Positions 48,573-53,838 of a stretch of 64,000 nt of DNA are shown in pieces. The DNA is from a bacterium HR19 (GTDB taxonomy: Bacteria; Calescibacteriota; Calescibacteriia; Calescibacteriales; Calescibacteriaceae). The position numbers and the translations under genes are program-made. Position 1 is the stretch's first letter. Each line of letters opens with the position of its first letter. The DNA is taken from the NCBI GenBank assembly GCA_002898315.1, contig BEHV01000007.1:58933-122932 (forward strand). Reading direction: 5' to 3'. The notes under the pieces were generated by a model. It saw only the letters and a program-made list of their open reading frames with translations, was not told the DNA's origin and ran no database searches.

Positions 48573-50708
48573 GTGGTGGGAAAAGAAATCAAAAAGAGTT
48601 TCCAGAAAATTTTTTCTCTCTTGACTTTTCTCTTCATTTTCCATCACTCTGGTCTTTCCGATATAAAGATAACTCATATAGGAATAAACACGAAACCCAC
48701 TTTTTCATATGTTTCAATCCATCTTGATTCCCCCGATTTCTCTTTCTCTTACAACAAAAAAGAAAACCTGATAGTTGTCGTGATTGATGCCAAAGCGAGA
48801 ACAGAAAGTAAAGTCGTTGAACCCAAAGATAAATTTATAAAGAAGTTAGCGTTAGTGCGTGGAGAGGTGGAAGGTGGTAAAGAAAAAGCTATTGTTCAGA
48901 TAATCTTGCGTGACCCGAATCTTGAGTGGAATGTAATAAGGTCAAGAAACGAAATAATAGTTTTTGTCGGAAGAAGCATTCCTTTTTATGAAAAAGATTT
49001 TGAAAAGTATGTTTTTGAGACAGTCCGCTCAAGGAATTACTCAGCTCTTGATAACCTCTTCTTTATGGCTGGTGTAGGAGATGACAAAACAAAAGCTCTG
49101 GCTTATTTCGGCATCGCTGAACTACTTTTTAAGATGGGTGTTGAGTCAAATTCAAGCTTCCTGCTTTATAGAGCATCTTTATTTTATGGAACATCTGCGG
49201 ATTTTTTCTATAAATTGGGTGATTGGCAGAATTATGCTATTTCGGTTTTCAAATCTTCAACAGCTTTGAGATGGGGTGGATTTTTTATTGAATCAGCGGG
49301 ATTAGCCCAGAGGGCGTTAGATAAGATTCAAAAGGTAAAATCAAAGATAACATCAAAAATCTACCTTGAAATTTACTCATCTCTTTTGTGTTCTGCTTCT
49401 CTTGGATTGGTTGGTATGAATAAAGCTGGCTCCGCTCTGCTGTTTGTTCAGAACATAACTTCGGATTTTTCTTCTTTCAGAGATGATGTAAAAGATTGTA
49501 TCTGGGCTTCTGCTGGAGCTGTTGAATATGAAAAGGGAAACTTTTACGATTCTGCTGAAAAATTCACTTATGTTTCAGAAAAGTTTCTGTTAAAAGACCC
49601 TGTTGTTTTGCCAAGATATGCTGATTCACTTCTAAAAATAAATAATTTTGAACTTGCGAGAAAATACTTTATAATCATGACCCAACACCCGTTATATGAA
49701 GTGAGGGCAAAAGGTTACTTAGGTGCTTTCAAAGTGTTTTTAGGAGAAGGGAAAGGAGACATGGCGATAAGATATATATATAAAGCTATTGATGAATTCT
49801 CTGGGAGTTTCTGGGAGGTAAGGGCAAGATTGCTCGCCGTCCAGAACAGAGATAAGCTGAAAAACTTTTACAGCGCCCTTGCAAAAAAATCTATCTCAAA
49901 AGATGACCCTATATATTTCCCAGAAGAAAATCTCAGGTTTATTATTTCATCTTTTTTGTTTCCTGAAAGTCAGATCGCTGTTTATGAATACATAAAACTT
50001 TTGAACGAAAAGTTAAAAGCTGATAAATTTGAAGATATTGAAAATTCTCTTGATTCCCTTTTTTCCTCTCTCTCTGTTCTCGGAGGGACAAAGGTTCCAG
50101 CAGATATAAAAGAAAACATAAGGGAAAAAAACTATGAGCTTCTGAATCTCCTCGTAAAAAAACAATTATATACCTATGCTTATTCGCTTTACAGCTCTTT
50201 CTCGGAATTTTTGCCCCCAGATTACCTGAAAGATTACTCTTCTATTATATCTGAATTTAGAAAATATGGATTTTTAGAATCAGAAGACGATTATGAAAAG
50301 ATAGTAAAAGAATTTTATGATAGTCAAGATAAACAATCTTTTGTTATGACTCATATCAAAGATTTCCCGAAAATATCAATAAATTACATAGAGTATCTCG
50401 TCCAGCAGGGGGAATGTCAGCGTGCTTATAATTTCCTTCTGGAAAATGAGAGCATAGTGAAGAATTTTCCTGAGTACTCAGATATGATTTTCATTCTTGC
50501 CTACTGCCTTTTTACGCATAGAGATGAACTACTTCTCGCTGATTTGTGCCAAAAATATAAGACACGAGATATAGAAGATTTCTGCAAATATGAAGAGTTT
50601 TTAGGTAAGGTGACAGGCGTGATGGAGATAATAGAATTTTTGGAGAGCGTATCAGATAGAGTAAAAAATATAAGAGAACAGTTTTTTAAACTCTATGGCG
50701 AGAGATGA
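48573..50708 (+). CDS. Exported TPR-like repeat protein
   Basis: 711 aa. A signal-type N-terminus (about 10-30), a beta-rich domain to about 130 that resembles an AMIN-like module, then helical pairs with TPR features (ALAYFGIAELLFKMG, ASLFYGTSADFFYKLGDWQNYAIS, and so on) to the end. GTG codons at 48573 and 48576 compete, with AGAGG just upstream. Such proteins scaffold envelope machines. Partner unknown; it is probably co-transcribed with the gene at 47915. Confidence 0.7.
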   Translation: MVGKEIKKSFQKIFSLLTFLFIFHHSGLSDIKITHIGINTKPTFSYVSIHLDSPDFSFSYNKKENLIVVVIDAKARTESKVVEPKDKFIKKLALVRGEVEGGKEKAIVQIILRDPNLEWNVIRSRNEIIVFVGRSIPFYEKDFEKYVFETVRSRNYSALDNLFFMAGVGDDKTKALAYFGIAELLFKMGVESNSSFLLYRASLFYGTSADFFYKLGDWQNYAISVFKSSTALRWGGFFIESAGLAQRALDKIQKVKSKITSKIYLEIYSSLLCSASLGLVGMNKAGSALLFVQNITSDFSSFRDDVKDCIWASAGAVEYEKGNFYDSAEKFTYVSEKFLLKDPVVLPRYADSLLKINNFELARKYFIIMTQHPLYEVRAKGYLGAFKVFLGEGKGDMAIRYIYKAIDEFSGSFWEVRARLLAVQNRDKLKNFYSALAKKSISKDDPIYFPEENLRFIISSFLFPESQIAVYEYIKLLNEKLKADKFEDIENSLDSLFSSLSVLGGTKVPADIKENIREKNYELLNLLVKKQLYTYAYSLYSSFSEFLPPDYLKDYSSIISEFRKYGFLESEDDYEKIVKEFYDSQDKQSFVMTHIKDFPKISINYIEYLVQQGECQRAYNFLLENESIVKNFPEYSDMIFILAYCLFTHRDELLLADLCQKYKTRDIEDFCKYEEFLGKVTGVMEIIEFLESVSDRVKNIREQFFKLYGER

Positions 50709-51664: not shown

Positions 51665-52360
51665 GTGAGCTGGACTGAAAGATTTTTTACTATTTGGAAA
51701 ACCAAGAATATGTATAGGTTCCCTGACTATATCTTCAAAAAAATACTCTCTGAAACTCGTGGAAAAATCCTTGATATAGGAACGGGAAATGGTCTGAAAC
51801 TCAAAAAAATTCTTGAGAAAATTCTTGAGAATAATAAAAACCAGATTGAAAGAGTTGTAGCTTTGGAAATAAATAAAAATCTTTTCCAAGTTGCAAAAGA
51901 ATTATTGAATTACGATTTTATAGACGTGGTAAATTGTTCTTTTGAAGATTTTCAACGAGATGAAAAGTACGATACCATATTTGCTTTTGAGGTTATTGAA
52001 CATGTTCAGAACCCATATTTTTTCATTGAAAAATGCAGAGAGCTTTTGAACAATCACGGGTGTCTTATTATCACAACTCCAAATAAAAAAATATATCGTC
52101 TTCAGGAAAAATTTTACTCTTTTGTATCCAGAGAGAAAAATAAAACTCATATTCCAGAAGTAGATGAGTTAGGCCAATCTCATGTTAAAGAGTTTGATTA
52201 TAAAGAGCTTTCACTTGTCTTAAAACAATTTTTCAATCAAGTAAATCTATATGCAATATATCCGTTCCATTCCATAAGGAGCAAACTTTACGAGAAGATA
52301 AATGAAATTACGAATTTCCTCCCATTTTCAATCAGAATTCTAGCTATATGCAGAAAATAA
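51665..52360 (+). CDS. Class I SAM-dependent methyltransferase
   Basis: 231 aa. The SAM motif ILDIGTGNGLKLKK, the acidic loop ALEINKN and IFAFEVIEHVQNPYFFIEKCRELLNNHGCLIITTPN fit methyltransferases of the UbiG/Coq3-like type acting on small molecules or sugars. It starts at GTG 51665, eight bases after TATAAA. The last 13 bases overlap the next gene. Confidence 0.87.
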   Translation: MSWTERFFTIWKTKNMYRFPDYIFKKILSETRGKILDIGTGNGLKLKKILEKILENNKNQIERVVALEINKNLFQVAKELLNYDFIDVVNCSFEDFQRDEKYDTIFAFEVIEHVQNPYFFIEKCRELLNNHGCLIITTPNKKIYRLQEKFYSFVSREKNKTHIPEVDELGQSHVKEFDYKELSLVLKQFFNQVNLYAIYPFHSIRSKLYEKINEITNFLPFSIRILAICRK

Positions 52361-53838
52361 AAAATGTTTTTGAGAATTTTAAATATCTCCTTTTCCTTTC
52401 AACATTAGCTTTTTCTTTTTGTAGTCCCCTCTGTTCTCGGAATAAAGATTCATCGTATAGTTCGCAAAAAATTCAAGAAGAAAAGGAAAGAAGAACAAAC
52501 CAAAACGATTTTGAAGTTATTATAGAAAACCTGGAGATTCCATGGACTATTATATTTATCAACAGAGATGAGATTTTGATTACCGAAAGACCCGGAAAAG
52601 TCAAGATTTTCAGTTTGCAGTATAAAAAACTTATCAGAGAATTTCAGATTGAAGGTATCAAACATATTGGAGAAGGAGGACTTCTTGGAGCTACTATCCA
52701 CCCAGATTTTAAAGAAAATAATTTCATTTATCTTTACTATACAACTGAGCAAAATGGGAATCTGATAAACAGAGTAGAAAGATATATCTTGAAAAATTAT
52801 GAGCTTATAAAAGATAAGATCATTTTGAATGATATTCCAGCCGGAAGAATTCATAACGGCGGAAGGATAAAATTTGGTCCTGATGGTCATCTTTACATCA
52901 CAACCGGGGATGCTGGAAATTCAGATAATTCTCAAAATATAAACTCTCTTGCGGGAAAAATTCTGAGGGTAGAAGAAGATGGTTCAATTCCAGAAGACAA
53001 TCCATTCGGAAATTATGTCTATGCTTATGGAATAAGGAATTCACAGGGAATTGCGTGGGATGCTGAGGGTAATCTCTGGGCAATTGATCACGGAAGGTCT
53101 GGAATTCAATCTGGACTTGACGAGGTCAATCTGATTGAGAAGGGTAGAAATTATGGTTGGCCTGTAATTCAAGGAGATGAGAGGAAAGAAGGAATGGAAA
53201 CTCCGATTACTCATTCGGGCGAGGATACAACTTGGGCTCCTGCAGACCTGATTTACTACAACAACTCACTTTTTTTCACGGGACTTCGTGGTCAAGCTAT
53301 ATATAAGTATGACATTACTAACAGGAAGCTGGAAGTTTATTTCTCGCAGAAATTTGGAAGATTGAGAGCAATAACCATCGGTCCAGATGGATATTTTTAT
53401 GTTTCAACATCAAATAGAGATGGAAGAGGTTATCCAAATGAAGGTGATGATAAAATTCTGAAGATAAATCCTGAAATCTTCTTTGATTCTGTTAGCTACA
53501 AACTGGAAGGAAAATTTTATAATCTTTTGGTCGCAGATGAGCCAGCAGAGTGGTTGAGAGGACTTATGTTCGCAAGGAAATGTGCTGATGGATTTTTTGA
53601 TTTCTCTTATGAGATTACTCCATGTTTGAACTGGTGGGACGGCATGATATTTATTTTCCCAGATAAAATGGTGAGGAGTTTTTGGAACAAAAATACACTT
53701 GTAGACATTGATATTTACTGGATCAATGATGATGATGTTATCGGTAAAGCTTTTCTCCCGTCTTTTGAGAGGACGAAAAAAATATACACTGTTACTTCTC
53801 CTTCTCAGGTCAATAAAGTTGTTGAGATAATAAACTGA
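52348..53838 (+). CDS. Exported PQQ-type soluble dehydrogenase fused to a DUF192 domain
   Basis: 496 aa. The N-terminus has a hydrophobic core (12-24) with Cys in FSFCSPLC, so a lipoprotein or cleaved signal is likely. Residues 55-375 match soluble aldose/glucose dehydrogenases: WTIIFINRDEILITERPGKV, HNGGRIKFGPDGHLYITTGD (His 169) and YAYGIRNSQGIAWD. Residues 385-496 match DUF192 (LRGLMFARK, DGMIFIFPDK, SFWNKNTLVDIDIYWI, ending VNKVVEI). I do not recall this fusion. The sugar oxidised is unknown and the PQQ supply is not in the window. Confidence 0.88.
   Translation: MQKIKNVFENFKYLLFLSTLAFSFCSPLCSRNKDSSYSSQKIQEEKERRTNQNDFEVIIENLEIPWTIIFINRDEILITERPGKVKIFSLQYKKLIREFQIEGIKHIGEGGLLGATIHPDFKENNFIYLYYTTEQNGNLINRVERYILKNYELIKDKIILNDIPAGRIHNGGRIKFGPDGHLYITTGDAGNSDNSQNINSLAGKILRVEEDGSIPEDNPFGNYVYAYGIRNSQGIAWDAEGNLWAIDHGRSGIQSGLDEVNLIEKGRNYGWPVIQGDERKEGMETPITHSGEDTTWAPADLIYYNNSLFFTGLRGQAIYKYDITNRKLEVYFSQKFGRLRAITIGPDGYFYVSTSNRDGRGYPNEGDDKILKINPEIFFDSVSYKLEGKFYNLLVADEPAEWLRGLMFARKCADGFFDFSYEITPCLNWWDGMIFIFPDKMVRSFWNKNTLVDIDIYWINDDDVIGKAFLPSFERTKKIYTVTSPSQVNKVVEIIN

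Follow-up and report, generated by a model that had tools for sequence, protein, structure and literature searches.

What does a DUF192 domain do at the end of a protein of the aldose dehydrogenase type, and how did the two come to share one chain? The question is raised by a gene of bacterium HR19 that lies in the window analyzed here, a stretch of 64,000 nucleotides. The coordinates, strand, and uninterrupted frame given for this gene in an earlier, sequence-only reading are exact (Table 1). The gene overlaps an upstream methyltransferase-like gene, and both this 13-nt overlap and the same flanking genes are retained in a congener, an independent MAG. Given that the frame is conserved in the congener at 84% identity, with dN/dS values of 0.09 for the GSDH part and 0.25 for the DUF192 part, the fusion is not a chance open reading frame. 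Both domains are under purifying selection. The whole protein is modeled by AlphaFold with a pLDDT of 87. An export signal had also been proposed for it; the N-terminal helix of the model may be a signal peptide or an uncleaved signal anchor, which makes export plausible, and no lipobox was seen in its sequence. Upstream in the window, positions 48573–50708 (+) encode a 711-aa protein with no Pfam match that is conserved in the congener (L032:2215–4359).

Table 1. Features of the GSDH-DUF192 fusion gene and its context (window coordinates unless a locus is named).
Feature	Position	Strand	Remarks
GSDH-DUF192 fusion gene, complete	52348..53838	+	496 aa in a single unbroken frame; ATG start at 52348, TGA stop at 53836-53838
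N-terminal hydrophobic helix, residues 1-28	52348..52431	+	From sequence; AlphaFold helix 2-28
GSDH (PQQ aldose dehydrogenase type) six-bladed beta-propeller, residues 55-375	52510..53472	+	
His169, equivalent of the catalytic His (motif IHNGGR)	52852..52854	+	Aligned with 3a9g, 2ism, 3das, and 2g8s
Arg230-Asn231, equivalent of the PQQ-contacting pair (motif YGIRNSQG)	53035..53040	+	Alignment with solved family members
Linker, residues 376-389	53473..53514	+	In alignment, HR35 (L035) holds a whole CapA/PGA_cap domain here
DUF192 domain, residues 390-496	53515..53835	+	Without the canonical C-terminal ~20 residues
DUF192 loop insertion, 17 residues (412-428)	53581..53631	+	Contains Cys412 and Cys426; from alignments
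Methyltransferase-like gene, upstream context outside the fusion	51665..52360	+	13-nt overlap with the fusion gene
Congener ortholog of the fusion	L032:6001-7494		84% identical; same frame conserved

The assignment of residues 55–375 to an aldose-dehydrogenase-type domain is well founded. PF07995 (GSDH) matches residues 62–360 with an E value of 1.4e-74 (251.8 bits against a cutoff of 25; profile positions 1–329 of 332). The PQQ aldose dehydrogenase of Pyrobaculum aerophilum (3a9g) is matched by phmmer over residues 58–375 (E 2.4e-74) and by Foldseek with the whole fusion model (E 1.9e-33, TMt 0.88), and it is 40% identical to the fusion in the structural alignment. The protein is not assigned to TIGR03606, the soluble glucose dehydrogenase subfamily, for which its 138.7 bits fall below the curated cutoff of 434.55. 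With 3a9g and the enzymes of Thermus (2ism) and Streptomyces (3das), the fusion shares the six-bladed propeller, the catalytic His, the Arg-Asn pair, and the NYGWP and SNRDGRG motifs. It differs from this family by the extra C-terminal DUF192 domain and by HGR in place of the HGP motif, at a residue where 3das also deviates. In sGDH the catalytic residue is His144, and PQQ is contacted by Arg430 and Asn431, the equivalents of the Arg-Asn pair of the fusion (PMC6881789); fusion residues are matched to sGDH numbering by motif. The retained motifs make PQQ binding and aldose oxidation by the fusion plausible. The host also has a second, diverged GSDH gene (G000:C10:1474–2157, 410-aa frame), which has no DUF192 match and is 41% identical to part of the fusion protein.

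Unlike the known PQQ aldose dehydrogenases, the fusion is found in a genome without detected PqqC, the marker of PQQ synthesis. A profile search that covered the host, its four relatives, and seven Parcubacterial genomes revealed no PqqC. When the search was repeated on 145 genomes, two genuine genes scored above the cutoff elsewhere, but the host and its relatives still gave none. Since the model finds genuine genes elsewhere, the absence from the host and the Parcubacteria is meaningful, within the limit set by a host genome that is 82% complete. Any PQQ used by the fusion would therefore need to be scavenged, possibly from neighboring cells.

The C-terminal part had been described as a complete DUF192 domain. 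Its identity is borne out by both domain search and structure prediction, but its completeness is not. PF02643 (DUF192) matches residues 394–466 (E 9.3e-10, 39 bits against a cutoff of 27), and an alignment-based profile of the domain matches the solved DUF192 proteins 3pjy (E 8.1e-23) and 3m7a (E 1.1e-17). Residues 377–496 modeled alone by AlphaFold (pLDDT 88) adopt a predicted fold that VIA-align superposes on 3pjy with Z 14.1 (1.8 Å, 101 residues) and on 3m7a with Z 13.2. The PF02643 match, however, spans only positions 4–61 of the 96 in the profile, and VVEI, the counterpart of the canonical YVLEVN, is the last strand of the protein; the ~20 residues that follow in other members (GW/GWF...GI.VGD.V) are absent. 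In alignment, the DUF192 copies of Parcubacterial CapA-DUF192 proteins stop at about the same point, and the shortening is common to all CapA-DUF192 proteins and to most standalone members of the clade. Judged from these alignments, the tail is a shortened DUF192-like variant, and the shortening is a property of the whole subfamily.

Like DUF192/COG1430 proteins in general, the tail contains the GLM, GMxF, FWxKNT, and V(L)E motifs, with FWNKNT instead of FWMKNT. It differs from them by the missing end and by an inserted loop, which has low pLDDT at residues 414–423. The congener keeps both cysteines of the loop, whereas the aligned Parcubacterial copies lack them; the pair could possibly form a disulfide. 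An ordinary DUF192 is a small single-domain protein, whereas this one is part of a larger, enzyme-like chain. A lectin or carbohydrate-binding reading of the fold was rejected, as the matches concerned (Foldseek E 0.1–0.8, Z <5) are common background of the tool.

The suspicion that such a chain is unusual holds. In a sample of 386 bacterial genomes, a profile of the fusion has matches at E ≤1e-8 in 100, and the match is full-length in only two, the window genome and the congener. GSDH and DUF192 share a chain in three of 244 genomes of the order of Candidatus Parcubacteria KatS3mg094 (hot-spring Parcubacteria), and among 379 genomes sampled evenly from its phylum, KatS3mg094 alone gave a full-length match. 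Among plasmid records, 272 have a GSDH match and none covers 80% of the fusion protein. DUF192 itself is present in 158 of the 386 genomes. The long DUF192 open reading frames among the matches listed for this sample, other than the fusion, include no GSDH fusion; with one exception DUF192 is their sole Pfam domain, and the two longest resemble over-extended frames. The exception (L105:172–2037, genome G104) is another DUF192 fusion, a 621-aa protein in which a right-handed beta-helix precedes a DUF192 at the C terminus. We found no description of the fusion or of a function for DUF192 in the open-access literature on DUF192/UPF0127. The GSDH-DUF192 protein is a new architecture made of two domains that were already known.

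The closest counterparts of the tail are found in Parcubacteria, where it is usually attached to a different enzyme. The same variant is found as the C-terminal end of CapA/PGA_cap proteins that are ~420–480 aa long (L077, L078, L079, L092, L093, and L094), and CapA-DUF192 occurs in seven genomes when L083, in which it is split into two open reading frames, is counted. The variant also occurs alone (L080). CapA-DUF192 is the normal setting of this variant in the Parcubacterial order and is more frequent there than GSDH-DUF192. We found no report of the two-domain CapA-DUF192 proteins (PF09587 and PF02643). Their DUF192 is shortened in the same way, is 57–61% identical to that of the window (70% for the copy in bacterium HR35), and likewise forms the C-terminal end of an exported protein, with a metallophosphatase-like CapA instead of GSDH as the catalytic domain. 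Conversely, the closest GSDH relatives that lack DUF192 (PF07995 and PF10648; 57–68% identical over the aligned part) end in an immunoglobulin-like Gmad2 module (L065–L068), or in Gmad2-Germane in L095. Gmad2 is the usual tail of GSDH in this order. The appended C-terminal domain on these exported enzymes looks interchangeable. A further Parcubacterial protein of 577 aa (L098:936–2669, genome G496) has a dienelactone-hydrolase domain fused before GSDH.

GSDH-DUF192 itself is encoded in KatS3mg096 (L033) and KatS3mg094 (L034). In bacterium HR35 (L035:5989–8262), one chain of 757 aa combines GSDH with a complete PGA_cap/CapA domain and with DUF192; it is apparently an intermediate or a recombinant form of the fusion. 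In each of these three genomes, the next gene is a separate Gmad2-Germane gene, which overlaps the preceding one by 4 nt. No CapA is encoded anywhere in KatS3mg094 or KatS3mg096, and the sole CapA of HR35 lies inside its fusion. In Parcubacterium G672 (L128, G672:C11) the locus is degraded, with a DUF192 fragment upstream of an intact Gmad2-Germane gene and a GSDH fragment downstream.

The host of the window gene lies outside the Patescibacteria, and beyond its own family no sampled species belongs to its order, class, or phylum. In the GSDH tree, however, the window protein and its congener fall within a nine-row clade (support 100/100) whose other rows are all Parcubacterial, and this clade sits inside a larger, wholly Patescibacterial group (100/100). 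Since the pair is nested among Parcubacterial GSDHs, the fusion gene was most likely acquired from Parcubacteria by horizontal transfer, although an AU test did not reject a single Parcubacterial GSDH clade without the window pair (p 0.288). The G+C content of the gene (0.357) is close to that of the host (0.351) and unlike that of the Parcubacterial donors (0.26–0.28); it has most likely adjusted to the host since the transfer. Synonymous divergence from the congener (dS 0.4–0.5) is like that of neighboring genes. The shared neighbors and overlap, the host-like G+C content, and the low dN/dS indicate a resident, selected gene that was gained before the two host species split. In G001, G003, and G004, where an empty site was sought, the gene upstream of SbcC differs and synteny is not kept, so the insertion site is unreadable there.

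These same features bear on whether the gene belongs to the host at all. Outside the genus its top similarity is to Parcubacteria, as would be expected of an assembly chimera or of Parcubacterial contamination in the window contig. Yet an independent congener MAG has the same gene in the same place, and neither composition nor dS sets the gene apart from its surroundings, so we regard such an artifact as very improbable.

The domains with their folds and motifs, the rarity of the fusion, the swapping of modules, and the Parcubacterial placement have been established by computation. The explanation that we favor, with a fair degree of confidence, is an exported propeller of the PQQ aldose dehydrogenase type with an exchangeable, non-catalytic DUF192 tail, built in Parcubacteria and then transferred. 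The protein would be membrane-anchored or secreted and would consist of two separately folding parts joined by a short linker, the propeller with its catalytic His and PQQ-contacting Arg-Asn pair, and the C-terminally shortened DUF192 beta-domain. We infer that the former binds PQQ and oxidizes sugar outside the cytoplasm and that the latter places the enzyme at the cell envelope, a role for the tail that is read from domain swapping. The architecture would have arisen among Parcubacteria of hot springs, in which CapA/PGA_cap proteins bear this tail, and would have passed into the ancestor shared by the window species and its congener. In the simplest, hypothetical course of events, a CapA-DUF192 gene became inserted between GSDH and Gmad2-Germane, as is seen in HR35, and CapA was lost later. 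The absence of CapA from KatS3mg094 and KatS3mg096, and its confinement to the fusion in HR35, fit such a capture followed by loss. Alternatively, CapA may have been inserted later into GSDH-DUF192; DUF192 and CapA trees are compatible with either order (AU p 0.15–0.28 for DUF192).

Other readings of the protein give its two parts different roles. The propeller might be a binding domain with the GSDH fold, like that of hedgehog-interacting protein, and the chain a surface adhesin or receptor. Non-enzymatic GSDH folds do exist, HHIP structures come next in the Foldseek ranking, and a binding protein would account for the lack of PqqC in the host and the seven Parcubacterial genomes, given that the model is able to detect genuine genes. 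The retained catalytic and PQQ-contacting residues, with NYGWP and SNRDGRG, argue for an enzyme, as do the closest matches among solved structures, which are PQQ aldose dehydrogenases (3a9g, and 3das with bound PQQ). Moreover, PQQ may be scavenged, and part of the host genome is missing. A binding propeller is thus unlikely, but it deserves some weight.

Slightly less probable still is the view of the sequence-only reading, in which DUF192 is a direct partner of the dehydrogenase and helps to capture substrate, transfer electrons, or handle PQQ. The conservation of the fusion in five genomes of two phyla, the selection on both domains, and a weak beta-sandwich similarity of DUF192 to fucose-binding and other carbohydrate-binding modules are in its favor. 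However, the similarity is of the background kind described above, DUF192 evolves faster than GSDH, and the closest GSDHs carry Gmad2 instead. Because the same tail is found more often on CapA than on GSDH, and also alone, the link from DUF192 to sugar oxidation is weakened; the fusion itself is real and rare. The evidence supports an extracytoplasmic tail module and not a sugar-oxidation partner. The faster evolution of the tail and its short C terminus might instead suggest a decaying fusion with a non-functional remnant, as might the wrecked locus of Parcubacterium G672. Decay is quite improbable, given that the truncation recurs across the subfamily as a variant, the dN/dS of the tail indicates constraint, and its fold is predicted with high confidence.

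The occurrence of one DUF192 variant on two unrelated exported enzymes makes the question of DUF192 function testable. Rather speculatively, DUF192 in this lineage may be a portable targeting tail that binds the envelope, perhaps its glycans, and that Parcubacteria exchange between CapA and GSDH; the finished gene would have passed to a bacterium of another phylum living alongside them, possibly the host of the Parcubacterium. If true, this would give DUF192 its first testable role. The favored explanation also involves a well-supported transfer, in which ultra-small Parcubacteria gave a multi-domain envelope gene to a bacterium of another phylum, and the direction of such a transfer can mark a symbiont-host pair. 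Finally, in the assembly intermediate of the Trypanosoma brucei mitoribosome, one chain (PDB 6yxx_EH, 6yxy_EH, and 7aoi_XH) matches the DUF192 model with Z ~9, indicating that the DUF192 fold may be present there as well.
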